From Merdibacter massiliensis (GTDB lineage Bacteria; Bacillota_I; Bacilli_A; Erysipelotrichales; Erysipelotrichaceae), in assembly GCF_900155395.1 (NCBI RefSeq), contig NZ_LT699728.1, forward strand, positions 124,001 to 188,000: a stretch of 64,000 nt of DNA, in the 5' to 3' direction. The translations under genes were made by a program, and so were the position numbers. The notes beneath the pieces were generated by a model. It had not been told where the DNA came from, ran no database searches, and worked only from the letters and a program-made list of their open reading frames with translations. Positions 16,739 to 48,651 of the stretch are shown here, piece by piece (the stretch's first letter is position 1; each line of letters starts with the position of its first letter).

Positions 16739-16748
16739 TACTATATGG

Positions 16749-21170: not shown

Positions 21171-21211
21171 TTCTTTTTCATGGATAATTCCGGATTATCC
21201 ATGAAAAAGAA
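21171..21211. repeat. Palindrome at the outer edge of the left loaP repeat
   Basis: Two perfect 17-base arms (TTCTTTTTCATGGATAA, 21171-21187; complement 21195-21211) surround TTCCGGA. The right-hand repeat keeps only the inner GGATAA/TTATCC arms (48722-48740). The repeated block begins within this palindrome. No T run follows on either strand, so it does not look like a terminator. Confidence 0.7.
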
Positions 21212-21240
21212 TATCAAAGAAGCAATCGTCGCAGTGTCGC

Positions 21241-21270
21241 GTTGTTTCGATGATAGGATCATCACACAAC
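21241..21270 (+). promoter_or_regulatory. Leader hairpin, candidate LoaP recognition element (copy A)
   Basis: The 30 bases form an outer stem GTTGT/ACAAC, an internal loop and an inner stem GATGAT/ATCATC closed by AGG. LoaP proteins are known to bind a small RNA hairpin in the 5' leader of their target operon; position and size fit, but the exact LoaP consensus cannot be verified here. Confidence 0.5.
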
Positions 21271-21330
21271 TGTCTACCATGTATGAAACATGATGGATGG
21301 GCGAAGCATATTCTTATGGAGGTGCAGCGT

Positions 21331-21849
21331 ATGGAACAGTGGTACGTCATACAAGTACGTACAGGGAAAGAACAATGGGTCATCAAAGCGTGCGATCTTT
21401 TGATCGATGAACCATGCCTGAGCAAAAGCTTCATCCCCTTCAGCAAACGGCTTCGCAAATACAGAGGAGAATGGGTCGAGAGAACCGAGATCTTATTTCC
21501 AGGCTATGTATTCATGATCAGTGATGATCCGACACGACTGTATCAGGCATTAAAGAAGATACCTGATCTGACAAAGATGCTTGGAAAGAACAAACAAGAG
21601 ATCTATCCCCTGCCAGAAGATGAAGTAACTTTTCTAAAATCGTTTGGTGAAGAAGAACAGATCGTTGACATGTCAACGGGCTATATCGAGGGAGATAAAA
21701 TCATCGTGGAATGCGGACCTTTGAAAGGAAAAGAAGGATTGATCAAACGGATCGACCGGCATAAACGAATTGCAGAGATCGAGATCGAATTCTTAGGAGA
21801 ACAAAGGAAAGCAAAAGTCGGCTTAGAGATCGTAAGGAAGAACATATAG
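21331..21849 (+). CDS. loaP: LoaP-type NusG paralogue, processive antiterminator (copy A)
   Basis: The product is 172 residues from MEQWYVIQVRTGKEQW, with GGAGGT 7 bases upstream. An in-frame ATG at 21250 lies inside the leader hairpin and lacks a ribosome-binding site. Residues 1-110 form the NGN domain (LFPGYVFMISDDP); residues about 120-172 are a KOW motif (YIEGDKIIVECGPLKGKEG). LoaP acts with RNA polymerase to read through terminators in long polysaccharide or secondary-metabolite operons. An intrinsic terminator directly follows this gene and precedes the first biosynthetic gene, as expected of an operon it controls. The protein is identical to that of copy B. Confidence 0.9.
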   Translation: MEQWYVIQVRTGKEQWVIKACDLLIDEPCLSKSFIPFSKRLRKYRGEWVERTEILFPGYVFMISDDPTRLYQALKKIPDLTKMLGKNKQEIYPLPEDEVTFLKSFGEEEQIVDMSTGYIEGDKIIVECGPLKGKEGLIKRIDRHKRIAEIEIEFLGEQRKAKVGLEIVRKNI

Positions 21850-21867
21850 CAATGTATGTTCTTTTTC
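21838..21867 (+). terminator. Intrinsic terminator between loaP and cassette A
   Basis: AAGAACATA (21838-21846) pairs with TATGTTCTT (21855-21863) and runs into TTTTTC. The T run exists only in the cassette direction. It overlaps the loaP stop codon and would stop transcription before the cassette unless antitermination acts. Confidence 0.75.
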
Positions 21868-21890
21868 TATGGGATGAGGGAGGATTCAAA

Positions 21891-23099
21891 ATGACAAAAA
21901 TGAATATACCATTTTCTCCACCAGATTTAACAGACAAAGAAATTCAATCTGTTGGTGAAGCCTTAAAATCAGGGTGGATTACGACTGGACCAAAAACAAA
22001 AGAATTTGAAAGAAGAATATCTGCATATATTGGTACAGATAAAACAGTATGTTTAAATAGTGCTACAGCATGTATGGAATTAACGTTACGCATTCTTGGA
22101 GTGGGTCCTGGAGATGAAGTTATTGTTCCTGCATATACCTATACTTCATCATGTTCAGTCATTTGTCATGTAGGGGCAACTCCAATCATAATCGATTCCC
22201 AATCAAATTGTGTGGAAATGGATTATGATCAAATGGAGGCAGCAATTACAGATAAAACGAAGGTCATTATTCCTGTAGATATTGCAGGTGTTATCTGTGA
22301 TTATGAGCGTATCTATCAAGCAGTTGAAAAAAAGAAAGACTTATTTAAAGCAAATAATGCCATACAAAAAGCATATAACCGCATAATTGTATTAGCAGAT
22401 GCTGCTCATGCTTTTGGTGCTATGAAAAATGGAAAACGTTGCGGTCAATTTGCTGATTTTACTTCCTTTAGCTTTCATGCAGTAAAAAATTTAACTACTG
22501 CAGAAGGTGGAGCCATTACATGGAGAAATCATGAAGGAATTGATAATGAATATATTTATAAACAATTTCAATTATTATCTTTGCATGGCCAGACAAAAGA
22601 TGCATTGCATAAAAATCAATTAGGAGCTTGGGAATATGATATTGTTTCTCCAGCTTATAAATGCAATATGACTGATATTATGGCAGCTATTGGTTTGGTG
22701 CAATTAGATCGTTATGAAGAAATGTTAAATTGGAGACATGAAATTATTAAAATGTATAATGAGGCTTTTTCATCTCTTCCAGTTACTTTATTGAATCATT
22801 GCGATGAAAATCACAGATCTAGCGGACATTTATATTTGGTAAGAATACAAGGTGCAACAGAAGAAAAAAGAAATGAAATTATTATTAAGATGGCAGAAAG
22901 AGGTATTGCTTGTAACGTACATTATAAGCCACTGCCAATGATGACTGCCTATAAAGATATGGGGTTCAATATCAAAGACTATCCAAATGCACATCAATTA
23001 TATGTAAACGAAATCACTTTGCCCTTATATAGTAAATTAAAAAAATCAGAAATTGACTATATAATTAGTAATTTTTGTGAGGTAGTTGAGAGGTTATGA
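21891..23099 (+). CDS. DegT/DnrJ/EryC1-family sugar aminotransferase (cassette A, first gene)
   Basis: The start MTKMNIPFSPPDLTD is 8 bases after GGGAGG, which lies inside the 705-bp repeat. The 402-residue protein has the PLP fold of sugar aminotransferases: LNSATACMELTLR, VIVPAYTYTSS, LADAAHAFGAM (PLP-binding Asp) and the Schiff-base lysine in SFHAVKNLTTAEGG. It would convert a 4-keto sugar nucleotide to the 4-amino form; the only 4,6-dehydratase in the locus is at 48807-50684, outside the cassette. It overlaps the next gene by 4 bases. Confidence 0.88.
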   Translation: MTKMNIPFSPPDLTDKEIQSVGEALKSGWITTGPKTKEFERRISAYIGTDKTVCLNSATACMELTLRILGVGPGDEVIVPAYTYTSSCSVICHVGATPIIIDSQSNCVEMDYDQMEAAITDKTKVIIPVDIAGVICDYERIYQAVEKKKDLFKANNAIQKAYNRIIVLADAAHAFGAMKNGKRCGQFADFTSFSFHAVKNLTTAEGGAITWRNHEGIDNEYIYKQFQLLSLHGQTKDALHKNQLGAWEYDIVSPAYKCNMTDIMAAIGLVQLDRYEEMLNWRHEIIKMYNEAFSSLPVTLLNHCDENHRSSGHLYLVRIQGATEEKRNEIIIKMAERGIACNVHYKPLPMMTAYKDMGFNIKDYPNAHQLYVNEITLPLYSKLKKSEIDYIISNFCEVVERL

Positions 23100-23782
23100 G
23101 ATTAATTCCATTTGAAGAATTACCAGCAGAAATTAAAAATGATTCTGTTAAAAAGTATTATGATTCTCTTAAGAAAAAACAACTTCAACTTTCCTTTAAA
23201 AGAATATTTGATATTAGTGCTTCTATTATTTTATGTGTTATTTTATCACCTATTATAGTTATTCTTGCTATTTGGATTAAATTAGATTCAAAGGGTCCCA
23301 TTTTTTATCGTCAGGAACGTATTACACAATATGGAAAAAAATTTAAAATATTCAAATTTAGGACAATGGTCATTGATGCTGATAAAAATGGTTCATTAGT
23401 AACTACACAAAATGATACAAGAATAACTAAAGTTGGAAATAAAATACGAAAATGTCGTTTAGATGAAATTCCTCAGTTATTTAATGTCTTAAAAGGTGAG
23501 ATGAGCTTTGTAGGAACAAGACCAGAGGTAAAGAGATACGTAGAAAAATATACAGATGAAATGAAAGCAACTTTATTATTACCTGCTGGCATAACTTCTT
23601 TAGCAAGCATCAAATTTAAAAATGAAGATGAAATAATTTCAAACTATTTAAAGGACAAGTACAATATAGACGAAATTTATATAAAAAAAATATTGCCTGA
23701 AAAGATGAAATGGAACATAGAATACCTTTCATCTTTTAATTTTGGAAAGGATTTTTGGATATGTCTGAGAACTGTAATCTAA
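23096..23782 (+). CDS. Initiating sugar-phosphate transferase (cassette A)
   Basis: The 228-residue protein of the bacterial sugar transferase family has an N-terminal hydrophobic re-entrant helix (SIILCVILSPIIVILAIWIK), then KFRTMVIDAD, a catalytic RLDEIPQLFNVLKGEMSFVG and TRPEVKRY. It has the size of the small monotopic PglC/EpsL type rather than the long WbaP type. It transfers a sugar-1-phosphate from a UDP-sugar to undecaprenyl phosphate, starting a repeat unit. It is translationally coupled to the aminotransferase (ATGA overlap). Confidence 0.9.
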   Translation: MRLIPFEELPAEIKNDSVKKYYDSLKKKQLQLSFKRIFDISASIILCVILSPIIVILAIWIKLDSKGPIFYRQERITQYGKKFKIFKFRTMVIDADKNGSLVTTQNDTRITKVGNKIRKCRLDEIPQLFNVLKGEMSFVGTRPEVKRYVEKYTDEMKATLLLPAGITSLASIKFKNEDEIISNYLKDKYNIDEIYIKKILPEKMKWNIEYLSSFNFGKDFWICLRTVI

Positions 23783-24612
23783 TGCACAGTACAAAAATAA
23801 GTGTTTTAATGTCTATATATAATAAAGAAACTGCAAGCAATCTAGAACAATGTTTTGAAAGTTTACTTAATCAAACAATACCTGCCAATGAATGGGTAAT
23901 TGTTAAAGATGGTCCACTAACTTCAGAACTAGAATTTGTTTTGCATAAATATGAGAAATTATATCCTACTCTAATAAAATATGTAATATTTGAAAAAAAT
24001 AAAGGTTTAGGCATTGCTTTAAGAGAAGGAGTAATCGCATGTAGTAATGAAATTATAGCTAGAATGGATACAGATGATATTTGTCGTCAAGATAGATTTG
24101 AATTAGAACTAAAAGAATTTATAAATGATCCTAGTTTAGATATTGTAGGAAGCCACATAAAAGAGTTTGATCAGAATATTAACAATATTATTTCAGTACG
24201 TAAAGTTCCTTTGGAAAATAATGAAATAATCAAATATCAAAAAAGGAGAAGCGCTTATAATCACATGACAGTGATGTTTAAACGAAGGTCAATTTTAAAA
24301 GCTGGAAATTATGAACATGCTCCACTTATGGAAGATGATATGTTATGGACTAGATTGATTCTTGCAGGTTGTAAAGGAAAAAATATTGACGACTATTTGG
24401 TGTTTGCAAGAACAGGTAAAGCTATGATATCTAGAAGAGGAAGTTTTTCATATTTTCTAAAATATAAGAAGAGTAGAAGAAAAGTTTATAAATTAGGACT
24501 AGCAAGTTACTCCGATTATCTTTATACTGTTTTAATTCAATTTTTTATCTCTTTAATGCCATTAAAATTAAGACAAGTTGTATTTATCAAAATATTACGG
24601 AGGAATAAATAA
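23761..24612 (+). CDS. Glycosyltransferase family 2 (cassette A)
   Basis: The 284-residue start MSENCNLMHSTKISVL follows AAGGA by 9 bases; it overlaps the end of the sugar transferase gene by 22 bases. GT-A features are visible: ISVLMSIYNKET, EWVIVKDGP, NKGLGIALREG and the metal-binding ARMDTDD. Later, MEDDMLWTRLILAG marks the acceptor side. It adds a sugar to the lipid-linked intermediate at the inner face of the membrane; the specificity is not deducible. Confidence 0.85.
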   Translation: MSENCNLMHSTKISVLMSIYNKETASNLEQCFESLLNQTIPANEWVIVKDGPLTSELEFVLHKYEKLYPTLIKYVIFEKNKGLGIALREGVIACSNEIIARMDTDDICRQDRFELELKEFINDPSLDIVGSHIKEFDQNINNIISVRKVPLENNEIIKYQKRRSAYNHMTVMFKRRSILKAGNYEHAPLMEDDMLWTRLILAGCKGKNIDDYLVFARTGKAMISRRGSFSYFLKYKKSRRKVYKLGLASYSDYLYTVLIQFFISLMPLKLRQVVFIKILRRNK

Positions 24613-24613
24613 A

Positions 24614-25621
24614 ATGAATAAAACTAGTCCATTAATTTCAATTATTGTTCCTATATATAACGTTGAACAATTTTTAACTAGATGTTTAAAATCCATATGC
24701 AATCAAAGTTACCAAAATATAGAAATAATCTTAGTAAATGATGGTTCTACTGACAATAGTGAAAACATTGCTTTAGAATTTCAAAATAAAGACGATCGAA
24801 TTAAATATTATTATAAAGAAAATGGAGGTTTGAGTTCAGCAAGAAATTTTGGTATTAAAGTATCACATGGTGAATTTATTGGTTTTGTTGATAGTGACGA
24901 TTGGATTTCGAAAGATATGTTTTATTATCTTTTAAATCTTATTTTTTCATATAATGCTGATATTTCATGCATTAATTATTTAGTCACTAATAAAGAAACT
25001 GATTTAATTAATAAGAATATAAAGATTTATGAATATAATAATGAAGTTGATATATATAAACATATTATATCTAAAGAGGACTATTCCTTTTGTACAAAAT
25101 TATTTAAGAGACAGCTTATTAGTCATAATATGTTTAAAGAAGGTAAATGTAATGAAGATATTTTAGCATGGTGTAAGTTAATTAAACCGAATATGAAAAT
25201 AGTTTATAGTACAAAAATACAATACTTTTATTTTAATAATACAAATCATGTTTCAATTTCAAATCCAATTTATGGTGTACGAAAACGTGACTTTGACTTA
25301 TTATATGCAACGAATTGTTTGTATAAAAAAACCATTAGGTATCATAATTCTAGTTTGACATACTTATCAGAATTAAAAAATGCAAGAAGCTATTTTTCAT
25401 TATTAGCTAAAATTGCATTTTATGGATATTTGGATGTAGAACTGAAAAATAATGAAAAAAAAATTGAATCAGAGTTATTGTATAATTTAAAAAATAATTT
25501 AATCGTTTTAATGAAAAGTAATATAGGTATCAAAAGAAAGATTCCTTGTTTAATGTTTTGTTGTAATTATACTATTTCAAAAAAAATATTTAGATTAATT
25601 AAAAAAATATATAGGAGGTAA
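24614..25621 (+). CDS. Glycosyltransferase family 2 (cassette A)
   Basis: The 335-residue product starts at MNKTSPLISIIVPIYN after GGAGGA, one base beyond the previous stop codon; a longer in-frame start inside the previous gene is unlikely. GT-A motifs are IILVNDGSTDNS, ENGGLSSARNFG and GFVDSDDWI (DxD). The C-terminal third is Lys/Asn-rich and less conserved. It is part of the tightly packed cassette. Confidence 0.88.
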   Translation: MNKTSPLISIIVPIYNVEQFLTRCLKSICNQSYQNIEIILVNDGSTDNSENIALEFQNKDDRIKYYYKENGGLSSARNFGIKVSHGEFIGFVDSDDWISKDMFYYLLNLIFSYNADISCINYLVTNKETDLINKNIKIYEYNNEVDIYKHIISKEDYSFCTKLFKRQLISHNMFKEGKCNEDILAWCKLIKPNMKIVYSTKIQYFYFNNTNHVSISNPIYGVRKRDFDLLYATNCLYKKTIRYHNSSLTYLSELKNARSYFSLLAKIAFYGYLDVELKNNEKKIESELLYNLKNNLIVLMKSNIGIKRKIPCLMFCCNYTISKKIFRLIKKIYRR

Positions 25622-25623
25622 AA

Positions 25624-26928
25624 ATGATTTATAATCAATTGATAAATAAGAAAACAAAATTAAGCTTAGTAGGCTTAGGGTATGTTGGAATGCCAATTGC
25701 TGTAGCATTTTCCAAAAAAATTAAAGTAGTTGGTTATGATTTAAACCAACATAAGATTGAAATGTATAAAAACGGCATAGATTCGACCAATGAAGTAGGA
25801 AATGATGCCATTAAGAGTTGTACTGTAGAATTTACTTCAGATGAAACAAAATTAAAAGAATGTTTATTTCACATTGTTGCGGTGCCTACACCTGTTCGTG
25901 ATGATCATACACCTGACCTTACGCCAGTAGAAAGTGCAAGTAGAACAGTTGGTAGAAACTTGCAAAAAGGGTCTATTGTTGTATATGAAAGCACAGTTTA
26001 TCCGGGTGTAACTGAAGATATATGTATCCCTATTCTCGAAAAAGAATCTGGATTGAAATGTGGTATTGATTTTAAAGTTGGTTATTCTCCTGAACGAATT
26101 AATCCTGGAGATAAAGTTCATCGACTAGAGACAATAACGAAAATTGTATCAGGGATGGACAAAGAGACATTAGATCAAGTCGCAAAAGTATACGAACTTG
26201 TTGTAGCTGCTGGCGTATATAGGGCGGAATCAATCAAGGTTGCGGAAGCGGCAAAAGTAATCGAAAATTCGCAACGTGATATTAATATCGCATTCATGAA
26301 TGAACTTTCGATTATTTTCAATAAAATGGGAATTGATACGCAGTCTGTATTAAAAGCAGCAGGAACGAAATGGAATTTTTTAAAATTCACACCTGGTCTT
26401 GTAGGTGGTCATTGTATTGGTGTAGATCCATACTACTTAACATATAAGGCAGAACAAGAAGGATATCATTCACAAATCATATTATCAGGACGTAGAATTA
26501 ATGACGATATGGGAAAATATGTTGCAGAGAATGTAGTTAAAAATATGATTCGTAATGATAAAAATGTTAAAAATGCAAGAGTTGGTATTTTAGGATTCAC
26601 TTTTAAAGAAAATTGCCCAGATACGCGTAATACGAAGATTATTGATATTGTTAAAGAACTAAATGAATATGGTATTTATCCAATTATAGTTGACCCTGTT
26701 GCGGATGCAGAAGAGGCTAAACATCTTTATGGCTTAGAATTTGAAGAGATGTCCGATTTAGTAAATTTAGATGCATTGGTGATTGCAACTAGTCATGATG
26801 AATTTAAAGATTTAACTATTGATCAATTTAATGCGATGTTTGTTGATAAGAAGATTGTTATTGATGTTAAAGGGATTCTTAATAGAAAAGAATATATTGA
26901 AGCAGGTTATGATTACTGGAGATTATAA
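25624..26928 (+). CDS. UDP-N-acetylhexosamine 6-dehydrogenase, TviB/WbpO-like
   Basis: The 434-residue UDP-glucose/GDP-mannose dehydrogenase-family protein shows the N-terminal NAD fold LSLVGLGYVGMPIAVAFSKK, a central EAAKVIENSQRDINIAFMNE and the catalytic cysteine in GLVGGHCIGVDPYYL. The tandem TGDTRNTK-like motif near the end reads NCPDTRNTKI. Family knowledge: it oxidises UDP-GlcNAc or UDP-GalNAc at C6 to the uronic acid. The next gene encodes the matching 4-epimerase, so UDP-GalNAcA is the likely product, giving an acidic polysaccharide. Confidence 0.9.
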   Translation: MIYNQLINKKTKLSLVGLGYVGMPIAVAFSKKIKVVGYDLNQHKIEMYKNGIDSTNEVGNDAIKSCTVEFTSDETKLKECLFHIVAVPTPVRDDHTPDLTPVESASRTVGRNLQKGSIVVYESTVYPGVTEDICIPILEKESGLKCGIDFKVGYSPERINPGDKVHRLETITKIVSGMDKETLDQVAKVYELVVAAGVYRAESIKVAEAAKVIENSQRDINIAFMNELSIIFNKMGIDTQSVLKAAGTKWNFLKFTPGLVGGHCIGVDPYYLTYKAEQEGYHSQIILSGRRINDDMGKYVAENVVKNMIRNDKNVKNARVGILGFTFKENCPDTRNTKIIDIVKELNEYGIYPIIVDPVADAEEAKHLYGLEFEEMSDLVNLDALVIATSHDEFKDLTIDQFNAMFVDKKIVIDVKGILNRKEYIEAGYDYWRL

Positions 26929-26945
26929 AAAAGGAGAGAGTGGTT

Positions 26946-27920
26946 ATGGGATACAAAAATATATCTTTTCCAGAAAATAGTATTTTTTTAGTAACTGGCG
27001 GAGCAGGTTTCATTGGATCTAATCTCTGCGAAGCAATTTTAAATCTTGGGTATAAAGTAAGATGTTTAGATAATCTATCTACAGGAAAGCAAGAAAATGT
27101 AGACTTGTTCATAAATCATCCAAATTATACATTTATTAAAGGAGACATTACTGATTTAGATACTTGCCTTTCTGTATGTGAAGGTGTTGATTATGTGTTA
27201 AATCAAGCAGCATGGGGATCAGTTCCAAGAAGTATTGAAATGCCCTTATACTATGAAAAAGTGAATATAGGCGGAACCCTCAATATGATGGAAGCCGCTA
27301 GACAAAAAGGTGTCAAAAAATTTGTATATGCTTCTAGTTCTTCTGTGTATGGAGATCATCCTGTATTACCAAAAGTAGAAGGACAAGAAGGAAACTTATT
27401 GTCACCCTATGCTTTAACAAAACGTGTAGATGAAGAATATGGAAAACTTTATAAGAAATTATATAACTTGGATACATATGGAATGCGCTACTTTAATGTC
27501 TTTGGTAGAAGACAAGATCCTAATGGAGCTTATGCGGCAGTAATCCCAAAGTTTATTAAACAGTTATTAAATGATGAAGCACCTACAATTAACGGAGATG
27601 GTAAGCAGTCAAGAGATTTTACGTATATAGATAATGTAATAGAAGCAAACTTGAAGGCTTGTTTAGCACCTAGTGAGTATGCTGGTGAAGCATTTAATAT
27701 AGCTTATGGTGGAAGAGAATATCTTATTGATATCTATCATCATCTTTGTAAAGCATTAGATAAAAATGTTGAACCAATATTTGGACCAGATCGTGCAGGA
27801 GATATTAAACATTCAAATGCTTGCATAGATAAAGCAAAGAAAATGTTAAACTACAATCCAACATATAGTTTTGAAGAAGGAATAGCTTTGGCTATTGATT
27901 GGTATAAAGAGAATCTATAA
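26946..27920 (+). CDS. UDP-sugar 4-epimerase, TviC/WbpP-like
   Basis: The 324-residue extended short-chain dehydrogenase starts with MGYKNISFPENSIFLV; GGAGAG lies upstream of the ATG at 26946 (a GTG at 26940 is less likely). The Rossmann motif GGAGFIGSNLCEAIL, the Ser in ASSSSVYGDHP and the catalytic pair in YALTKRVDE (YxxxK) are all present. The N-terminal extension before the Rossmann fold is typical of WbpP/TviC group-3 epimerases acting on N-acetylated UDP-sugars or their uronic acids. Confidence 0.9.
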   Translation: MGYKNISFPENSIFLVTGGAGFIGSNLCEAILNLGYKVRCLDNLSTGKQENVDLFINHPNYTFIKGDITDLDTCLSVCEGVDYVLNQAAWGSVPRSIEMPLYYEKVNIGGTLNMMEAARQKGVKKFVYASSSSVYGDHPVLPKVEGQEGNLLSPYALTKRVDEEYGKLYKKLYNLDTYGMRYFNVFGRRQDPNGAYAAVIPKFIKQLLNDEAPTINGDGKQSRDFTYIDNVIEANLKACLAPSEYAGEAFNIAYGGREYLIDIYHHLCKALDKNVEPIFGPDRAGDIKHSNACIDKAKKMLNYNPTYSFEEGIALAIDWYKENL

Positions 27921-27961
27921 TAAAAGAAAGGAGAGCCTTATTTATTGTGTAGTATGTTATT

Positions 27962-29443
27962 ATGATTAGATTAAAAAAGATTAATAAATATATTTTAATA
28001 AATATTGTTCACTGTGTATTACTGTTAGTGGGATCAATACTATTTTTTTTCTTTATGAGTAAGGATGATTTAAATTATTCCGTATTAAGTATTTTACTCA
28101 TATTTATTTCTCAAGTTATTTTTTGTTTGATAAAATATGAACAAAGAATAGCATATTTGCTATTTCTTGCATCTTTTTTTATTTTTCTTTTAGGTAGAAT
28201 GTGCGTTGAGTATTTTTACTATGGTTCAATTGGTTTTTATTTTACACTTAGTATTTCAAAACATATGCTTTTATCAATTTTTATATCACTAATATTTTTA
28301 GAAGTAGGATATTGTTGCATTTTAATAGTTAAAAATAAATATAAGCATTTGAATATTAGTTTTAATGATCATAAAAGAGAAACAGAAAAATATTCTTTCT
28401 TGATGAGAATTTCATTTATCCTATTTTCTATAACTTTCATATGTGTTATATTAATGAATTTTGAACAAGTTATATACGTTAATAAATATGATTATATTGC
28501 ACTTTTCAAAGATTTTCATAGCCAATTACCTCGTTTACTACAGGTAGTTGGTAATATGTACATTGTTTCTTTTTTGATTTTTTTAGGGACTTGTCCAAAA
28601 AGAAGATATTGTATTATTTCGTTTATAATGTTTTTCATAATATCGTTAACAGACTTACTTATTGGAGATAGAGGAACTTTTATCATAAATTTAGCAATAA
28701 TAATTGTGTATATTTTTTGGAGAGAGTGTGTTGATAATAAAATATGGATTAATAGAAAAATAATTCTCTTAACAATTGTCATCTTACCTCTATTTTTAGC
28801 ATTTTTAAATTACTTTGTTAGCATTAGAGAAGATGTGAATATGGGAGAAAATAAAATATCAGCACAACTACGAAACTTTTTTATTTCTACAGGTTCATCA
28901 GTGGATATATTAGGTTATGGCGAAGTGTATAAAGATGATTTGCCACAATCATTTTATTCTTTTGGAGAATTAATTGATTACCCTAAATATAATCCAATTT
29001 CGGAATATCTATTTAATATAGCTGAGCCAATGCCGCATACAAAAGAATATGTTTATACAATGCATTCTTACGCGCATGCAATATCATATTTTATTGATTC
29101 TAATCTGTATTTAGAAGGACATGGAAAAGGTTCATCTTATATCGCAGAGGTATATAATGATTTTGGATATATTGGAATAATTGTTTGTAATCTTCTTTAT
29201 GGTTCTTTATTAGCATCAGTTAACTTAGTAAAAAAAGGAAAACCATTTCTTCTAGCATGTCTTTTAATTTCCATTCGAATAATGTTTTATGTTCCAAGAG
29301 GAGCAATGATTCAACCAATTAGTTATGTTTTAAATATTACTACATTAAGTGCATTATTCTTTTTTTTCATTGCCATGAAAAATGAAATTAGATTAAAGAC
29401 TGCTTTCCAAACTTTTTTAAATAAGGTACGAAAGGTAATTTAA
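27962..29443 (+). CDS. Wzy-type polysaccharide polymerase (cassette A)
   Basis: The 493-residue very hydrophobic protein has about 12 predicted membrane helices and a large extracytoplasmic loop near residues 290-390 (GSSVDILGYGEVY, MHSYAHAISYF). This is the layout of O-antigen/oligosaccharide repeat polymerases. It has no sequence signature beyond that; its place between sugar-nucleotide genes and a flippase supports the call. It would link repeat units at the outer face of the membrane. Confidence 0.75.
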   Translation: MIRLKKINKYILINIVHCVLLLVGSILFFFFMSKDDLNYSVLSILLIFISQVIFCLIKYEQRIAYLLFLASFFIFLLGRMCVEYFYYGSIGFYFTLSISKHMLLSIFISLIFLEVGYCCILIVKNKYKHLNISFNDHKRETEKYSFLMRISFILFSITFICVILMNFEQVIYVNKYDYIALFKDFHSQLPRLLQVVGNMYIVSFLIFLGTCPKRRYCIISFIMFFIISLTDLLIGDRGTFIINLAIIIVYIFWRECVDNKIWINRKIILLTIVILPLFLAFLNYFVSIREDVNMGENKISAQLRNFFISTGSSVDILGYGEVYKDDLPQSFYSFGELIDYPKYNPISEYLFNIAEPMPHTKEYVYTMHSYAHAISYFIDSNLYLEGHGKGSSYIAEVYNDFGYIGIIVCNLLYGSLLASVNLVKKGKPFLLACLLISIRIMFYVPRGAMIQPISYVLNITTLSALFFFFIAMKNEIRLKTAFQTFLNKVRKVI

Positions 29444-29444
29444 C

Positions 29445-30668
29445 ATGAAAAAATTATTAATTGTTATAGACAGCTTGGGGTGTGGTGGAGCTGAAAAAGC
29501 TTTGATTTCATTGTTAAAACATATTGATTATAATACTTATCAAATTGATTTATTATATTTTTCTAAAAATGATGCATATTACAAAACAAAGGTTCCCAAG
29601 TGGGTTAACATATTAGACATAGACATAAATACAGAAATTGCACTTTCACCATTAAAAACTACTTTAAAGTATATTTATATAATAAAAAAATGGCCATTGA
29701 TTTTTATTAGAGTAAAAAATTTTATAGAAAAAAAAATGAAAAAAGAAAGTTATTATTACTGCCAAATGAAGAATTGGAAAATATTGAATAAATATATACC
29801 AAAGCAACAAAATCAATATGATTCGGTAATAGCATTTTTAGAAAGTACTCCAACATATTATATTGTAGATAAAGTAATTGCAAAAAAATATATATCCTTT
29901 TTAAGAACAGATTATAAATTAATGGAATCTGATTCTGGATTTGACTACAACTATTATAAAAAAATAGATTATATTTGTGTTCTATCAGAAGAAATGAAAG
30001 ACAATTTTAATCAATCATTTGTTAATTTTAAGAATAAGGTTGTAATTTTACCAAATATAATTGATGTTAATGAAATATTATTAAAAAGTAATATTGAAAT
30101 TGATTTTGATATAGATTTTTCTGGTATAAAAATAATATCTGTTGGTACACTTCGAAAAGTTAAAGGATATGATATTGCTATTGAAGCATGTAAATTGTTA
30201 GTAGACATGGGTTACGAATTTAAATGGTATATATTAGGTGAAGGTGAAGAACGAAGAAATTTATTAAAAGAAATAAAAAAATATGGGATAGAAAATAATT
30301 TCATATTATGTGGAAGAAAAGAAAATCCATATGCATACATTAGAAAAGCGGATATATTTGTACAATGTTCTTATAGAGAAGGATTTTCTAATTCTGTATT
30401 TGAAGCAAAATGTTTAAAAAAGCCTATAGTAATCACAAGCTCTCCTGGAATGAAGAATCAAATTAGGCATTGTATTAATGGGTTTATAGCAGAATGCGGA
30501 AATTATAAAGAGGTTGCATATTATATTTCCAAACTTATTGACTCAGAAGAAATTCGAGAAAAATTCATAAAATCATTATGTAATTTTTCTGAATCACAAG
30601 ACCAAAGAAATCATAAAACACTTAAAAAATTCTATGATTTAATTAAATATGAAAAATTAGAGGATTAA
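29445..30668 (+). CDS. Glycosyltransferase family 4 (cassette A)
   Basis: The 407-residue GT-B protein has N-terminal LLIVIDSLGCGGAEKALISL. Its C-terminal nucleotide-binding half has IISVGTLRKVKGYDIAIEA, YILGEGEERRNLL, and FVQCSYREGFSNSVFEAK, the EX7E motif that positions the donor. It starts one base after the polymerase stop. The donor and linkage are unknown. Confidence 0.88.
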   Translation: MKKLLIVIDSLGCGGAEKALISLLKHIDYNTYQIDLLYFSKNDAYYKTKVPKWVNILDIDINTEIALSPLKTTLKYIYIIKKWPLIFIRVKNFIEKKMKKESYYYCQMKNWKILNKYIPKQQNQYDSVIAFLESTPTYYIVDKVIAKKYISFLRTDYKLMESDSGFDYNYYKKIDYICVLSEEMKDNFNQSFVNFKNKVVILPNIIDVNEILLKSNIEIDFDIDFSGIKIISVGTLRKVKGYDIAIEACKLLVDMGYEFKWYILGEGEERRNLLKEIKKYGIENNFILCGRKENPYAYIRKADIFVQCSYREGFSNSVFEAKCLKKPIVITSSPGMKNQIRHCINGFIAECGNYKEVAYYISKLIDSEEIREKFIKSLCNFSESQDQRNHKTLKKFYDLIKYEKLED

Positions 30669-30671
30669 ATA

Positions 30672-31185
30672 ATGAGACATATTATAAGAAAAATTATGTT
30701 GTTCTAATAAAACTTACATAAAAATTCTTAGGGATGAGGGAATCAAAATAGGAGAAAATTGTGAAATATACAAAGGAGTTGATTTTGGTAGTGAACCTTA
30801 CCTTATTGAATTAGGAAATCATGTACGAATAACCAATAACTGTAAGTTTATAACACATGATGGAGGGGTTTGGGTATTAAGGAAAATATATAAAAATGAA
30901 CATATCGATTTATTTGGAAAAATTACAATAGGAGATAATGTACATATTGGCATAAACTCAGTTATTATGCCAAATGTTCATATAGGTAGTAATGTAATCA
31001 TTGGCTGTGGAGCTGTGATAACTAAAGATATTCCCGATGGAGAAATATGGGGAGGGGTTCCTGCTAGATTTATAAAAAAAATAGACGAGTATTACTTACA
31101 ACACAAAAAAGAGTTTGATTACACTAAGGGATATTCATATACAGAAAAAAAGGAATATTTATTAACTAAGAAGAAATGGGAATAA
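30672..31185 (+). pseudogene. Hexapeptide-repeat acetyltransferase, frameshifted near the start
   Basis: An ATG at 30672 encodes MRHIIRKIMLF and then a stop. The rest of a left-handed beta-helix acetyltransferase (GIKIGENCEIYKG ... IGDNVHIGINSVIMPN ... VITKDIPDGEIWGGVPARF) continues in the +1 frame with no good in-frame start until 30967. The expected intact protein would run from 30672, so a small indel around 30700-30710 has probably inactivated it. It would have O-acetylated a sugar of cassette A. Confidence 0.65.
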
Positions 31186-31216
31186 TATACTTTAATCTTA
31201 GGTAAGGAGGAAAGTT

Positions 31217-32737
31217 TTGAAAAAAAAATTATACGCAAATAATATATTTTCATTAGCATATCAAATATTATCTATTATTGTTGGGTTAATATTACCTCGA
31301 ATGATTTTAAAAACGTATGGGTCTGAAGCAAACGGCCTAATATCTTCAATTACACAAATGCTTGGTTTTATTTCGATTCTTGATTTAGGAGTTGGTGCTG
31401 TTGTTCAAGCTGCTTTATATAAACCTTTAAGTCTTAAAAACGATCTTCAAATTTCTTTAATATATAGCAGTGCTAAAAAGTATTTTCAAATAATAGCTAA
31501 AGCATTAATGATATATATTTTTTTATTATGTATATATTATTGTATGAATGAATCAAATAAGTTCTCTTCACTTTATACGATTACATTAATTTTATCAATT
31601 TCTATTAGCTCATTTGCTCAATATTATTTTGGAATTTGTAATACACTTCTTTTAAATGCAGATCAGAAAATTTATATTAATGTAATATTTAATCTTATAA
31701 CATTAATAATAAATGCATTATTTTCAATTTTATTAATGTATTTAAATTTATCAATTCAGATTGTTAAATTAGTATCATCCATGATTTTTTTAATGAGACC
31801 ATTTTTTTTATCTATCTATGTGAAAAAAAAGTATTCTATTCATATTATAAAAAATCCTCCTGCAAATGTTATAAAGCAAAAGTGGAATGGTTTAGCTCAG
31901 CATATTTCTACAGTATTAACATCTCAGATTGATTATGCGGTTCTAACAGTTTTTTCTACTTATAAATCAATTTCCATCTATAATATATATATTCTTCCCT
32001 TAATGGGAATTAGAACATTAGTAGATTCAGTTAGTTCTAGTTATAAAAGTTTTTTTGGTAAATTAATCGCAGAGAATAATCTAAAACAGTTAGAGAAAGA
32101 ATTCACTAATTACGAAATTATGATGCATTTATTTGTAGTAATTGTATTTTGTTGTACTGCTAAAGTTATTATTCCTTTTGTTCTTATTTATACTAATGGT
32201 GTAAATGATACTAATTATGATCAGCCTTTTTTTTCTTTAATTATTACACTATCTTATGCTTTATATACACTAAGGATTCCTTATACTACAATAATTTTCT
32301 CTGCAGGTCATTTCAAACAAACTCAGATTTATTCAATAATTGAATGTATACTAAATGTAGTATTATCTATTCTATTTGTAAAATATTTTGATATATCAGG
32401 TGCAGCCTTAGGTACTTGCATAGCAGTCTTATATCGTTTATTAGTTTCATCTTATTATCTAAAAAATAATATACTCAAAAGATCATTTATCGCCTTTTTA
32501 AAATTACTTTTCAAAGATACTTTATCAATTATTCTTATTATATTATTAACTGCCAAAATGCAGATTACTGAAATAACAATATTTAACTGGGTTATTTTTT
32601 CATTAAAGATTTTTTCTTTATGTAGTGTGGTAACAGTACTAGTATTCTTAAATTTTAATGTCTTGAGATTAAAAAAAATATTAATTGCTCAGTTTAATAA
32701 AATATTAAATAATGTTAGATATAGAGTAAAAAAATAG
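31217..32737 (+). CDS. Wzx-type flippase (cassette A)
   Basis: The 506-residue polytopic protein of the polysaccharide transport (MATE/MOP) family has about 12-14 helices and an N-terminus (KLYANNIFSLAYQILSIIVG) typical of the family, with PRMILKTYGSEANGL. It moves lipid-linked repeats across the membrane. AAGGAGG precedes the start; an ATG is absent and TTG at 31217 is used. It is the last gene of cassette A and shares fold but little sequence with the flippase of cassette B. Confidence 0.88.
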   Translation: MKKKLYANNIFSLAYQILSIIVGLILPRMILKTYGSEANGLISSITQMLGFISILDLGVGAVVQAALYKPLSLKNDLQISLIYSSAKKYFQIIAKALMIYIFLLCIYYCMNESNKFSSLYTITLILSISISSFAQYYFGICNTLLLNADQKIYINVIFNLITLIINALFSILLMYLNLSIQIVKLVSSMIFLMRPFFLSIYVKKKYSIHIIKNPPANVIKQKWNGLAQHISTVLTSQIDYAVLTVFSTYKSISIYNIYILPLMGIRTLVDSVSSSYKSFFGKLIAENNLKQLEKEFTNYEIMMHLFVVIVFCCTAKVIIPFVLIYTNGVNDTNYDQPFFSLIITLSYALYTLRIPYTTIIFSAGHFKQTQIYSIIECILNVVLSILFVKYFDISGAALGTCIAVLYRLLVSSYYLKNNILKRSFIAFLKLLFKDTLSIILIILLTAKMQITEITIFNWVIFSLKIFSLCSVVTVLVFLNFNVLRLKKILIAQFNKILNNVRYRVKK

Positions 32738-34827: not shown

Positions 34828-36327
34828 TTATTGAAAAAAGGATCTTAATATATTAATACTTTTTTTTATTGACTGCTTATCAAAAATGAAAGTAATAAAT
34901 AAAAAATATATACTAACTGCAAATGTTATACAAATAGCCCAAGCAAACCATGCGTAATAACTCTGTGTTTTAACTACAAATATTTTATTAAAACATAATA
35001 TAAATAGAATTCCAAACAAAACATATATAATTACCCTTTTAAAAGAATTAAATGAACTTATTTTTACTATATACTTGTTAGAATAAATTACAAAATCAAT
35101 AGTTCTATAAGAATAGGACATGAGACATCCTAATAAAACACCATTTATACCAAAAGTAAAAGAAAATATAATCTGTCCTACTATACATAAAACCATCTCA
35201 ATTATAGCTCTATTTTGAGTCTGCTTAAAATGTCCTGCAGCATTAACTAATGTCCGTGCCGGAACTCTAATATTATTTGCTATTCCTACTAAAACAAACA
35301 AAAACGCTAAAATTGGTAAATGATAATTGGTATCTGTCATACCACTTGTATAAACATCTATAAATGGCATTATCATTAAAAAAGTAACAACATAAATAAT
35401 AGCAGTAAAGCAAAAATAAATACATTCAAATAAATTAAAATTTGTTATTAAAAGTTTTTGTTCTCTTTGTGATATAATTTCCCCAAAAGATGCATAAACT
35501 GCTGTCGAAATCATAGAGCAAATTGTATCTAGTCCATTAAATACTAGCGCATATACAGTATATACACTCGCGGATTTTAAACCACAAATCAAACTAACGA
35601 TGATTGTTGAACTGCTATAAACGATTAATCCAGCTAATTGATGTATAATTGCGTTATTTCTTTGTGTAATTTTATTAAACATTGGTTTAACACTATTATT
35701 TAAATAAGGATAGTGAATGTCTACATACCACTTTAATATTATTATTCTCATTAAATATATAATACTTGCACCTAATTGAACAATTATGATATTTGCATTT
35801 AACGCTATTAATATTATTGTTATTATGATATTTGCAATATTTCCAATTGCTTGTGTTAAAGCAATTATGTAATTATTCTGATTTGCATTCACTATTGTTT
35901 GATATTTCCCATAAACGTAAAACTCTGAAATTCCACTAATTCCAATAATAATTACTAGGAAGATAACAGTCATTCGGTCAATATCTTTTACAAAAAAAGG
36001 GTAAACTAGTGAAAGCAATAATACTATTAAGGAAAAATAATTTCCTGCTTTAACAAACATTTTATTTGTCGCATTATATATACCACTAATAGTTATATAA
36101 TCTTTTTTATATAGAGGTTCATATAATGCATATGTACTACTCTGGCTAATTCCTGCTCCGGTTAGTTGAGCATATGTCATCATTTGTCTAATTGTTGATA
36201 TCAAACCATTAAATGATGAACCAAAATTTGAAATTAGTAATGGGGGAAGTATAAAATTAGTAATAATACCTACCAATTGCTGTATGAAATTAAAAAAAAG
36301 ATTTATAAGTGTTTTTCTAGTTCTCAT
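34828..36327 (-). CDS. Wzx-type flippase (cassette B)
   Basis: The 499-residue polytopic MOP-family exporter begins TLINLFFNFIQQLVGIITNF and has PPLLISNFGSSFNGLIS, with 12-14 predicted helices. AGGAG lies upstream. It is the last gene of cassette B and therefore mirrors the position of the flippase in cassette A. It exports undecaprenyl-linked repeats of the cassette B polymer. Confidence 0.88.
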   Translation of the reverse strand: MRTRKTLINLFFNFIQQLVGIITNFILPPLLISNFGSSFNGLISTIRQMMTYAQLTGAGISQSSTYALYEPLYKKDYITISGIYNATNKMFVKAGNYFSLIVLLLSLVYPFFVKDIDRMTVIFLVIIIGISGISEFYVYGKYQTIVNANQNNYIIALTQAIGNIANIIITIILIALNANIIIVQLGASIIYLMRIIILKWYVDIHYPYLNNSVKPMFNKITQRNNAIIHQLAGLIVYSSSTIIVSLICGLKSASVYTVYALVFNGLDTICSMISTAVYASFGEIISQREQKLLITNFNLFECIYFCFTAIIYVVTFLMIMPFIDVYTSGMTDTNYHLPILAFLFVLVGIANNIRVPARTLVNAAGHFKQTQNRAIIEMVLCIVGQIIFSFTFGINGVLLGCLMSYSYRTIDFVIYSNKYIVKISSFNSFKRVIIYVLFGILFILCFNKIFVVKTQSYYAWFAWAICITFAVSIYFLFITFIFDKQSIKKSINILRSFFQ

Positions 36328-36353
36328 ATATTAAGTCTCCTTAAAATTATATG

Positions 36354-37313
36354 TTATTTTAAACTATAAACTATTTTAAATATAAATTTAGAATTTTTTA
36401 TTGTCCACAATTTCATATAACCTATTATAGATAATCTCCAATATTTTTCTTCTTTAGCTAAGTCTAAAATCTTTTTAGATATGTTAGAAGAAATTTCAGA
36501 ATAAAAATATTCAGAATTAATTCCATTTATATAATAAGAGACTACTGCATTTGCAAGTTGATGAAAAGATAGTCTTGATAGATTAGGAAAATGCTGTTTT
36601 ATATATAAATATTTATCTAAATTTGCATTAATTAAATCAAAATTTTTAAAATCACTTTGGTATGAACCAGTTGTACTAAAGTTATTAAGCATATAGCAAT
36701 AATAAGTTTTGTTAGTAAATGAAATTTTTTTTACATCCTTAACAATCTGGTACATTAAATATACATCTTCAAATTTTTTATATTTTGAAAAAGGTAGATT
36801 TTCTAATAGTCTTTTTTTAAATAATTTATGGCAAAAAAAATTAGAAATTCCTCCTTTGATTGATACCAGATTTCTCATAATATCTTCCGTTCCCTCTATA
36901 ACACCACATTCTGACAAGCCTATCAAATAATCATAATTATCATTATTTCGATAACATTTAATCTCACATAGAGACAACTCAGATTTCGAGTTCATTATAG
37001 AATTATAGAGTTCTTCAATATAATTATTTGGTACATAATCATCAGAGTCAATAAATGCTATATATGATCCTAAAGAATTTTTTATTCCAACATGTCTTGC
37101 AACATCTTGTCCTTGATTTATTTGGTTAAAAACCCTAATACGATTATCTTTTTCACTATATTTTAAACATATCTGTAAAGAATGATCTTTAGATCCGTCA
37201 TTGATAAGTATAATATCTAAGTCATTATAAGATTGATTTAAAATCGATTTAATACAACGATCTAGATATTTTTCAGTATTATATATAGGAATAATAATTG
37301 ATATTATTTCCAT
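36354..37313 (-). CDS. Glycosyltransferase family 2 (cassette B)
   Basis: The 319-residue product starts MEIISIIIPIYNTEKYLD at 37313, with GGAGG 7 bases upstream. GT-A features are DIILINDGSKDHS, NQGQDVARHVGIKN and AFIDSDDYVPNNY (DxD). The C-terminal part is variable. It is separated from the polymerase gene by a 200-base AT-rich gap, the largest inside cassette B apart from the one at its end. Confidence 0.87.
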   Translation of the reverse strand: MEIISIIIPIYNTEKYLDRCIKSILNQSYNDLDIILINDGSKDHSLQICLKYSEKDNRIRVFNQINQGQDVARHVGIKNSLGSYIAFIDSDDYVPNNYIEELYNSIMNSKSELSLCEIKCYRNNDNYDYLIGLSECGVIEGTEDIMRNLVSIKGGISNFFCHKLFKKRLLENLPFSKYKKFEDVYLMYQIVKDVKKISFTNKTYYCYMLNNFSTTGSYQSDFKNFDLINANLDKYLYIKQHFPNLSRLSFHQLANAVVSYYINGINSEYFYSEISSNISKKILDLAKEEKYWRLSIIGYMKLWTIKNSKFIFKIVYSLK

Positions 37314-37514
37314 AATCAATCCTCCTTATTTTTATGTTTAATTGATATAGTAATTATAAAATCAGTTTTCACAGTATTAATTTAACTTTTATATTGCTTC
37401 GTGTACTGACGTAGACCTATTAATATAATGAAATTTTGAAATCTAATCAATTTAGTAAATAGATAATTTCACAAAAAAATAAATTTTTTTATTTGTAAAA
37501 TTTAGTTCACTGTG

Positions 37515-38756
37515 TTAAATGATAGTAAGTATTGGAAAGAAAAATTCTAGATAATGTATATCCAAATACCACGGATATGCAATAATACTTCTATAATTAA
37601 ACAACAGTAAAATTATATTTAAAAAAATAATTACTGAGATTACAAAGATAAACAAATTATTTTTTTTAATAATTGAAAAAAATTGATGAAATATAGGAAT
37701 GCTTAATATACTTATTATATAAGTTAATCTCATTAGATAAGTCATATTTGGAATAAAAGCAAGATAAAATAAGAAAAATGCACTATAAAAATCATTATAC
37801 AAGAAAAATAGATTATTATTTGCTTTTCTTTTCACAATAAGTAATATAACAAAATTAAAAATTAATAATACAATTAACAGTGTATAATGATTAAAATTTG
37901 TTATATTTATTAACTCACTTGAATAAATGACAAATTTATTTATGATAACGTTACTAAGAAATTTTGGAAAAAAAGTACCTATTATTTTGGCAAACAAATT
38001 TAAAATGGGAAACAAACAAAGAAGAAGCAAAGTTATCAAAATTTTTATCTTACCGTGTAATCTCTTATATATGAAATTGTAAAATAAAAAGAAAGTGATG
38101 ATTAATATAGACCCTGAATGGATGAATAAGCAACAAAAAAAAGATAAAAATAGCCTTAGTTTTCTAAATTTAGTATTAGAGTTATTTATATAGTAAAAAA
38201 TAATTGTATACGCAAGAACAATAAAAGCAAAATGATTTCTCAATCCGCTAATATAGTACCTAGGAAAAATTTCTAATAAAATAAAAAGAAAAAAAATGAA
38301 ATTAATAAAAAATCGCTTAAATCTACTAGTATTAATACTATCTAACGGAAAACATTTTAATATATCCATAATTAAGAAAACACCAAAGCCTACATAGAAA
38401 GCCGGATACATATGAGGACATCTAATAACTGCAAACATATACATTATTAGTGTATTTAATGGAACACCTAAGTAACCAAAATTAAAAATTTCAGTTATCC
38501 CCACGTGGCTTAGATTTTCCATTATTTGATAATGTCTATATAGATCATCAGATTCTAAAGGCACTGTATGATACGCTATATATCCGAACGAAAAACTTAA
38601 TAGCATTGCCAAATACATTTTTTTTATTCTTTTTTGATTTGAAAAAAATAAAAATAAATTTATTACTATAGATATCAATGGACTCAAAATTGTAAGAAAA
38701 GTTAAAAGGACATAAAAGAAATAGTTACTAATTTGATTATTTATATATTGCACCAT
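37515..38756 (-). CDS. EpsG-family polysaccharide polymerase (cassette B)
   Basis: The 413-residue protein has about 10-12 hydrophobic segments. The N-terminal region AYHTVPLESDDLYRHYQIM matches the EpsG/Wzy-like signature (DxDLxRHY), and the YYISGLRNHFAFIV stretch fits the same family. It polymerises repeat units at the outer membrane face. It overlaps the preceding glycosyltransferase by 20 bases. Confidence 0.82.
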   Translation of the reverse strand: MVQYINNQISNYFFYVLLTFLTILSPLISIVINLFLFFSNQKRIKKMYLAMLLSFSFGYIAYHTVPLESDDLYRHYQIMENLSHVGITEIFNFGYLGVPLNTLIMYMFAVIRCPHMYPAFYVGFGVFLIMDILKCFPLDSINTSRFKRFFINFIFFLFILLEIFPRYYISGLRNHFAFIVLAYTIIFYYINNSNTKFRKLRLFLSFFCCLFIHSGSILIITFFLFYNFIYKRLHGKIKILITLLLLCLFPILNLFAKIIGTFFPKFLSNVIINKFVIYSSELINITNFNHYTLLIVLLIFNFVILLIVKRKANNNLFFLYNDFYSAFFLFYLAFIPNMTYLMRLTYIISILSIPIFHQFFSIIKKNNLFIFVISVIIFLNIILLLFNYRSIIAYPWYLDIHYLEFFFPILTII

Positions 38757-39855
38757 TATAAATACACTCCAGTAATTTTAATGATTGTTCTATAGTATAT
38801 TTCTTATCATGTAGCTTACAATTTATTAATTTTATATCCTTTTCTAATAATTTATTACCTTTCAAATTCATTATTGCTTCATACCATTCTTTAAAGTTTC
38901 CGTTAATATCTAAAAACGTAACTAAATTTAAGCCCAAATCAACTTGTGATGATACATTTTTTGAAACTAAGCAAGGAATACCACATGCTTGTGCTTCAAT
39001 CAATGTAACAGGAATTCCTTCATATAATGACGGCATAACTAAAACATCGAAAATATTCATCAAACAATCAATGTCATTTCTAGTACCTAAAAAGCAAAAA
39101 TAATTTGATAAATCAAGTTCCTTTATCTTATTTTCCAATTCTATTCTAAGATTTCCTTTACCCACAAGATAAAATTTAATATTTGTGATTTTCTGTTGTT
39201 TCATCCAAAAAGCAAGTTCAATTAAAAAAGAATGATTTTTTACCTTATAAAAAGAACCAATGCAACCTATTTTCACTTTGGAATCTTGAATTAAATCAAA
39301 ATATTTTAGGGCATCGATTTTTTTGGGTTTAAAAATATTAATATCTATTGCATTATTTAAAATTATTACATTTTCTCCATGTTTACCAAACAAATAGCTT
39401 GCTGCATCATTACCACAAGCGACCAACTTTGTTGAAAAGCTTAAAATAATTTTTTTTGAAATAGACATATACATCTTCATTAATAAATTTTCTCTTTTCA
39501 TTTGTCCTGTACTATGAGAATGGGTTATACGAATAGGGACGTTTGCCATTTTTGCTGCAAGAATACTGATTGAAGAGTTAAATAAAGTATGTGCATGCAC
39601 AATATCAATTTTTTCTTTTAACATTATTTTTTTTAATTTGAAAATATCATAAATCAGAAATTTTTGTTTAAAGTGAATTACCTTTCCCCCCATATTTAAT
39701 ACTTCCTCTTCATAATCTTGAGTAACACCTTGAGGATAATAGACTAAAAAGTAAAAAAGATATTTAGATCTATCAATGTTTCTGAATATATTCATAATCA
39801 TGGTTTCTGCTCCTCCACGATTTAATCCACCTATTACTTGTAATACTTTTACCAC
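38737..39855 (-). CDS. Glycosyltransferase family 4, GT-B fold (cassette B)
   Basis: The 372-residue protein has VLQVIGGLNRGGAETMIMN at the N-terminus, DIVHAHTLFNSSISILAAK, IGCIGSFYKVKNHSFLIELA, and the EX7E donor motif in MPSLYEGIPVTLIEAQACG. It is typical of EpsF-like GT4 enzymes. The substrates are unknown. Confidence 0.9.
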   Translation of the reverse strand: MVKVLQVIGGLNRGGAETMIMNIFRNIDRSKYLFYFLVYYPQGVTQDYEEEVLNMGGKVIHFKQKFLIYDIFKLKKIMLKEKIDIVHAHTLFNSSISILAAKMANVPIRITHSHSTGQMKRENLLMKMYMSISKKIILSFSTKLVACGNDAASYLFGKHGENVIILNNAIDINIFKPKKIDALKYFDLIQDSKVKIGCIGSFYKVKNHSFLIELAFWMKQQKITNIKFYLVGKGNLRIELENKIKELDLSNYFCFLGTRNDIDCLMNIFDVLVMPSLYEGIPVTLIEAQACGIPCLVSKNVSSQVDLGLNLVTFLDINGNFKEWYEAIMNLKGNKLLEKDIKLINCKLHDKKYTIEQSLKLLECIYNGAIYK

Positions 39856-39873
39856 AGGTATCCTCCTAACGTT

Positions 39874-40665
39874 TTACCTTCTTGTTCGATGAAGAAATTC
39901 ATAAACTGATGTTGGCAATAATCCTATAATAATTGGCTTTAATACATAAATATAATTATATTTGGGTAAGAAAAAATCTTTAACTATTAATTTTTTTACA
40001 TATGCTTCATTAAGTCTATATTTGAACTTTCTTCTCTTAGTTGCAGCCCTATCATCCCTCATTTTATACAAAGGTTCTTCTAAATTATATCCTATATAAC
40101 CATTTAAATACATTTTAAACCATAAATGATAGTCTTCTACTCGTAGTAGCTTTTTATTTACCGTATATCCTTTTACTTTTCTATATGCAATTGTTCTTAC
40201 CATGCACGGAGCATGACAAAATGGTGTCCCTTTTACAAAATCACTCTTTTCTGGTTTTGCAATACTATTACTTTTCCCCCAATCTCCTGATTCGTCGAAA
40301 TATATCATATTTGTACTGACAATTGAATATTGTCTATTTAATTTTAAAAAACTAATTTCTTTCTCAAATCGTGTTGGCAATGATATATCATCTGCGTCCA
40401 TCCTTGCAACAAATTCAGTATCAACATATTCCAAACACTTATTTAATGTATAATTTAATCCTCTATTCTTATCATTTTTTAGTAAAATAACATTGTCATT
40501 ATTTTCTGCAATTTTTTTTGCTATTTCATATGTGTTATCTGTAGATCCATCATCACACATGATTAATTTCCAATTTTTATACGTTTGTTCTTTTAATGAA
40601 TTAAATGCTTCATCTAAAGTTAAAGAACAATTATAAATTCCCATAATAACAGATACTTCAGTCAT
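39874..40665 (-). CDS. Glycosyltransferase family 2 (cassette B)
   Basis: The 263-residue product starts MTEVSVIMGIYNCSLTL at 40665, after GAGGA. GT-A motifs are LIMCDDGSTDNT, NRGLNYTLNKCLEY and ARMDADDISLPTRF (DxD). HAPCMVRTIAYRKV and VEDYHLWFKMYLNG are also typical of EpsE/WcaA-like enzymes. It is followed by a C-terminal hydrophobic stretch. Confidence 0.87.
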   Translation of the reverse strand: MTEVSVIMGIYNCSLTLDEAFNSLKEQTYKNWKLIMCDDGSTDNTYEIAKKIAENNDNVILLKNDKNRGLNYTLNKCLEYVDTEFVARMDADDISLPTRFEKEISFLKLNRQYSIVSTNMIYFDESGDWGKSNSIAKPEKSDFVKGTPFCHAPCMVRTIAYRKVKGYTVNKKLLRVEDYHLWFKMYLNGYIGYNLEEPLYKMRDDRAATKRRKFKYRLNEAYVKKLIVKDFFLPKYNYIYVLKPIIIGLLPTSVYEFLHRTRR

Positions 40666-40808
40666 ATAAATCCTCAAATCATCAATCTTATTTTTTGATT
40701 AATGTCTCTTTCTAAGTCATAAATGTAAATTATATTTTTTGGTTATGCAATATACTCATAAACTTCATTATTTCAGCATATAAAATTTCAAGTTTGCATG
40801 TGTTGCAT

Positions 40809-41948: not shown

Positions 41949-41959
41949 AGAATATAATC

Positions 41960-42056
41960 TCCCTTTCAATTTTTGGTATATGTAGATTTTAGTTTCGTAG
42001 GAACACCTACGTAAGTTCCTTTATTAATTAAACAGTTGCTGTCATTAGTGCTCTCA
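41960..42056 (-). pseudogene. Remnant of a hexapeptide acetyltransferase C-terminus
   Basis: In one minus-strand frame the stretch reads SNCLINKGTYVGVPTKLKS, the usual end of a left-handed beta-helix acetyltransferase (GTYVGVPAK). Nothing upstream of it in that frame belongs to the same gene, so it is a fragment. Confidence 0.4.
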
Positions 42057-43956: not shown

Positions 43957-43982
43957 TTTAAAAATCACTCCTTAAAAACTTC

Positions 43983-48034: not shown

Positions 48035-48054
48035 AAATCCTCCCTCATCCCATA

Positions 48055-48084
48055 GAAAAAGAACATACATTGCTATATGTTCTT
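48055..48084 (-). terminator. Intrinsic terminator between loaP and cassette B
   Basis: Same 9-bp stem (AAGAACATA/TATGTTCTT) and five-T run as in the left copy, directed into cassette B. Confidence 0.75.
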
Positions 48085-48591: not shown

Positions 48592-48651
48592 ACGCTGCAC
48601 CTCCATAAGAATATGCTTCGCCCATCCATCATGTTTCATACATGGTAGACA

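Follow-up and report, generated by a model that had tools for sequence, protein, structure and literature searches.

The 64,000-nucleotide stretch of DNA analysed here (the window) contains two complete, differing capsule clusters that face each other, and each is headed by one copy of an inverted repeat carrying loaP. Its architecture points to what is probably a two-layer capsule switch, in which DNA inversion would select the cassette and a LoaP gate would act at the cassette head. The source genome (2.47 Mb) belongs to the Erysipelotrichales, and the window was compared with 47 distinct loaP loci of that order. The original prediction had proposed a LoaP-controlled terminator ahead of each cassette; judging by the sequence, it overlooked that the two blocks form inverted arms, each beginning at a recombination-like site, and that a recognisable promoter stands at only one of them. 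Coordinates of the features are collected in Table 1.

Table 1. Features of the loaP units and capsule cassettes in the window (sites, promoter and RNA target are predictions).
Feature	Position	Strand	Basis
Arm 1: site, leader, loaP, terminator, to cassette ribosome-binding site	21182..21886	+	701/705 identical to arm 2
Putative recombination site A, GGATAATTCCGGATTATCC (GGATAA-N7-TTATCC), exact left boundary of arm 1	21182..21200	+	whole-genome site search
Conserved leader hairpin AAUCGUYGC-nnn-GUCRCGUU, candidate LoaP RNA target	21214..21252	+	covariation, 38.8 bits
loaP copy 1, 172 aa from ATG behind GGAGG (longer ORF starts 21250)	21331..21849	+	NCBIfam NF033641
Terminator hairpin and U5 tract over loaP stop codon	21835..21866	+	fold, comparison of loci
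Capsule cassette 1: PseC-like aminotransferase, sugar-phosphate transferase, glycosyltransferases, UDP-sugar dehydrogenase, epimerase, Wzy, 10-TM protein	21891..32737	+	
Capsule cassette 2: LegC-type aminotransferase, sugar-phosphate transferase, PLP decarboxylase-like, epimerase, ATP-grasp, glycosyltransferases, multi-TM proteins	34828..48032	-	
Arm 2 of inverted repeat	48036..48740	-	alignment with arm 1
Terminator hairpin, copy 2	48056..48087	-	fold, comparison of loci
loaP copy 2, protein identical to copy 1	48073..48591	-	NCBIfam NF033641
Conserved leader hairpin, copy 2	48670..48708	-	38.8 bits
Putative recombination site B, inverted, spacer TTCCGGA as at site A	48722..48740	-	whole-genome site search
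Promoter-like TAAACA-17-TATAAT with TG extension, outside arm 2	48781..48809	-	consensus match only
CapD/PseB-like nucleotide-sugar enzyme, fixed gene adjoining arm 2	48807..50684	-	

Inverted arms and the palindromic site

The two arms form a single 705-bp inverted repeat with 99.4% identity; its four differences are all synonymous and lie in loaP, and by its sequence the repeat is recent or homogenised. Both loaP products score 190.8 bits against NF033641 (cutoff 125) and so belong to the LoaP family; an assignment to the UpxY antiterminators was rejected at 55 bits, under the cutoff of 100. The arm had no match among plasmids, and neither LoaP relatives nor a site with the window's spacer were found in viral contigs. 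At arm 1 the palindrome extends to a nearly perfect 41-bp inverted repeat (window positions 21171-21211), which is not so at arm 2.

Exact copies of the site occur twice in the whole genome, both in the window at the arm ends. In three relatives the loaP arms likewise begin at a palindrome of this type: GGATAATTGACAGTTATCT in G277 (arms of 687 bp, 99.9% identical), GGATAATAGAGAGTTATCC in G273 (690 bp, 98.3%) and GATAATTAGTTATTATCC in G287 (665 bp, 99.5%, on separate contigs, one arm being without the 3' half of the terminator). G236 has a single loaP with a site 3' of its stop codon, and an inverted partner site 27 kb off heads another cassette; both cassettes have a terminator just inside the site, though loaP is present at one end only. 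On a further contig of G287 (G287:C155), two inverted sites 2.6 kb apart have a common sequence of only 22 bp, with a spacer that differs from that of the loaP arms of the same genome. The segment at 1760-4349 of this locus (L178) looks invertible and carries a capD-like gene, a LoaP leader and a terminator, but no loaP; it has a spacer of its own and is probably acted on by LoaP in trans.

Inverted short-site copies with a matching core are thus found in the window, G236 (27 kb), G277 (37 kb), G273 (67 kb) and G287:C155 (2.6 kb), and the N7 spacer is the same within each pair and different between pairs. Tyrosine recombinases need identical overlap regions, and spacers that match within pairs only are as expected for such an enzyme. 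The GGATAA-N7-TTATCC motif was derived from five cases, G274, G275 and G287:C155 having been added by a later pattern search. Allowing one mismatch, the 51 kb near loaP contain 12 sites and the other 412 kb of these loci contain 3; the cases from which the motif was derived are among those counted.

Alternatively, the 700-bp arms could invert the segment through ordinary homologous recombination, with the palindrome as a passive boundary. The length and identity of the arms would suffice for RecA, and no recombinase gene lies between or beside the sites. However, the palindrome is conserved across genera, its spacer is matched only within a pair, and the 22-bp identity at G287:C155 is too short, so that we consider this route possible but unlikely. 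We find it slightly less probable still that the gate alone is real, with no inversion, and that loaP was simply duplicated in inverted arms whose likeness gene conversion maintains. Arms of 705 bp at such high identity would fit a recent duplication, as would the G287 arms with their separate contigs and incomplete terminator, but arms in four lineages begin exactly at the same type of palindrome, pairs are inverted wherever their orientation is readable, the G287:C155 pair has just 22 bp in common, and the G236 sites are paired around a single loaP. The architecture, judged from one assembly per species in which a single orientation is seen, argues for a probable inversion by site-specific recombination at the palindromes.

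Terminator and leader hairpins of loaP

The claim that a 9-bp hairpin with a T run overlaps the loaP stop and faces the cassette was confirmed in both blocks. The hairpin, GGAAGAACATATA-GCAA-TGTATGTTCTTTTTC, folds with a minimum free energy of -13.6 kcal/mol (z -5.4), which none of 200 shuffles equalled or beat. Its 9-bp core stem is AAGAACATA/TATGTTCTT, and in the RNA A-U pairing with the U tract lengthens the stem. The U5 tract lies at 21862-21866 and the loaP stop codon (21847-21849) falls inside the hairpin span; the opposite strand is without a T run, so the hairpin is directional and points into the cassette. It falls in the cassette 5' leader, with the likely cassette starts (21891 and 48032) just downstream. 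A stable hairpin followed by a U tract is what is expected of an intrinsic terminator; the core stem has two G-C pairs only and is not G+C-rich. A generic terminator scan, which requires three G-C pairs, missed the hairpin for this reason. The weak stem perhaps marks a NusA-dependent terminator, which would suit LoaP targets. An Rfam search returned tRNAs only.

The original prediction had also taken the intactness of both copies as a sign of function. The copies are parts of one inverted repeat and are not independent, and an unchanged 30-base stretch is expected at the divergence of that repeat, so their intactness is uninformative and function must be argued from relatives. We called a terminator where, from -10 to +60 of the loaP stop, a hairpin folded at -6 kcal/mol or lower and was accompanied by a U tract. 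By this definition a terminator is present near the stop in 35 of the 47 distinct loaP loci, with differing sequences. Where a co-directional gene follows closely, 26 of 37 loci have it, compared with 17 of 159 control junctions, taken from other co-directional gene pairs of the same loci (odds ratio 19.7; the p-value of 6.6e-13 overstates independence, the loci being related); among control junctions with gaps of at least 25 nt the figure was 7/30. Terminator sequences vary among genera and the position recurs, and in several loci the conserved end of loaP forms the 5' arm. The terminator copies of G273 have two base differences, and both still fold. Several loaP loci are without a terminator (e.g., L012 and L014) or without a recombination-like site.

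These loci bear on whether the hairpin is a mere terminator of a loaP monocistron, with the cassettes transcribed from promoters of their own. Of loaP loci without a close co-directional gene, 9/10 also have the terminator, which speaks for a monocistron. Against this, only about 20 nt separate the hairpin from the cassette ribosome-binding site in the window, as in many relatives, leaving no room for a promoter, and the leader hairpin is confined to the region upstream of loaP. We therefore regard a monocistron as very unlikely.

Upstream of loaP, the leader hairpin motif (Table 1) recurs in nearly all closer relatives. Across 26 sequences, 91.6% of the cells of this bulged hairpin are paired, compared with 76.0 in shuffles, and 52 cells are changed on both sides, compared with 18.7; the covariation score is 0.441 against 0.152 in shuffles, and slid versions drop off. 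In the window's whole genome the hairpin is found only at the two loaP copies, and in the whole genomes searched it occurs almost exclusively at loaP. With a covarying structured RNA hairpin upstream of loaP in most loci, as in the leaders of LoaP targets, this element is likely to be the LoaP target. The leader pattern had 10 matches without loaP in viral contigs, and the five with context examined resemble chance. In L043, L055 and L121 the leader hairpin lies 3' of the loaP stop rather than 5' of loaP. L180 (G010:C1:2252715-2252753) is a second hairpin of this type, located 21 kb 3' of loaP within a polysaccharide cluster.

A terminator of differing sequence recurring at the same place in relatives, together with the covarying leader hairpin, makes a gate between loaP and cassette that LoaP would override a well supported prediction. 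The gate as originally proposed is thus retained on the evidence of relatives, and the two-copy conservation argument is dropped.

Promoter side and recombinase candidates

By consensus match, TAAACA-17-TGTGCTATAAT lies outside arm 2 and nothing comparable lies outside arm 1. Consensus matches of the form TTGCAn..TGTAGTATTAT occur at one arm per pair in G277 and G273, and also 5' of several single loaP loci. Three loaP-arm pairs (window, G277 and G273) thus have a recognisable promoter outside one arm only, which would suit a single active promoter per pair. A capD-like gene adjoins loaP also in G236, G273, G274 and others, and its place upstream of loaP in several of the relatives makes arm 2 the probable original position. 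G273 and G277 have LegC-type cassettes with about 80% identity to cassette 2; in G273 this cassette lies on the promoter side, as it does in the window, and in G277 on the opposite side. Fragments of an IS3-type transposase lie between the converging cassettes (window 33462-34699).

That the palindrome is the operator of a regulator rather than a recombination site is highly improbable: a protein that binds DNA as a dimer would match its 7+5+7 symmetry, but among loci it lies variously 5' of the leader or 3' of the loaP stop or terminator, it marks homology boundaries, and it is paired with an identical spacer. For recombination at these sites, a XerC-like gene with tyrosine-recombinase residues just beyond the window end, approximately 16 kb from arm 2, is a candidate only; its close relatives are present in 8 of 9 site-bearing genomes compared with 5 of 16 site-less genomes tested. 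The integrase at 15375-16667 was rejected as the invertase, as it adjoins a tRNA gene, is of a separate integrase type and has no relative near the sites elsewhere. This tyrosine integrase, together with an AAA ATPase (13929-15251) weakly like the MADS defence protein MAD3, lies in a possible small integrative element at 13316-16834. The window also contains two copies of an IS110-family transposon (5164-6803 and 52391-54030, 99.8% identical) and a third, partial related stretch (63049-63994); directly next to each of the two copies is a 21-aa piece that resembles the XerC-like recombinase.

Proposed switch and known systems

In the switch we propose, site-specific recombination at the inverted GGATAA-N7-TTATCC sites would flip the 27-kb segment, and its orientation would set which cassette joins the single promoter at the capD end. 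A transcript from this promoter would contain leader hairpin, loaP and terminator in that order, and in the absence of LoaP most transcripts would stop just past loaP. Once accumulated, LoaP would load on the leader hairpin and RNA polymerase would then pass the terminator into the cassette; the terminator may also guard the unconnected cassette against stray transcription. We see the chances as evenly balanced that these loci represent a widespread Erysipelotrichales switch family, in which a dedicated tyrosine recombinase would invert whole cassettes at GGATAA-N7-TTATCC, the spacer would set the partners, the LoaP gate would silence the unconnected cassette, and several site pairs with different spacers could coexist in one genome.

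In Bacteroides, small promoters invert and UpxY proteins are locus-specific. The likeness is a NusG paralogue combined with DNA inversion to choose a capsule; here, in contrast, inversion would involve entire cassettes, and the NusG paralogue is LoaP rather than UpxY. LoaP of Bacillus velezensis, whose mechanism is established, depends on a leader hairpin, and the leader terminator on which it acts is enhanced by NusA (PMC12691694). Because a leader RNA hairpin and a terminator are required there, the covarying leader hairpin would fit the known mechanism. The dfn and mln operons share with the window a LoaP-family NusG paralogue, a leader RNA hairpin, an intrinsic terminator before the first biosynthetic gene and a long operon (PMC12691694). 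In the window, by contrast, loaP itself is flanked by the leader hairpin and by the terminator, which spans its stop codon; a capsule cassette is the target, and inverted arms carry the unit in two copies. The dfn hairpin is UNCG-type, and the comparison with the window's covers the presence of a leader hairpin.

The nearest published precedent, as far as the available text of the preprint goes, is Eggerthella lenta, in which large inversions move capsule clusters relative to loaP at a 16-bp inverted repeat, GATAAGCGCGGTTATG, without an adjacent recombinase (PMC13174815). The short inverted repeat and the missing adjacent recombinase are shared with the window, whereas E. lenta belongs to another phylum, its inversions are of megabase scale, and its site has a 6-nt centre between ATAA and TTAT compared with 7 nt here; the resemblance between the sites may serve as a lead only. 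A leader hairpin, a terminator gate and a spacer rule are not described in that available text. Within the open-access papers searched we found no LoaP-linked inversion in Firmicutes.

The covarying leader hairpin, the terminator at a fixed place and the defined inversion site are three directly testable parts, and they bear on LoaP's natural capsule targets in gut Firmicutes and on the role of the position of the loaP gene. If inversion is shown, the E. lenta inversions would gain a possible relative with a defined site rule, and a two-step DNA/RNA switch would set the choice of capsule in these gut bacteria and hence their sensitivity to phages and their interaction with the host.
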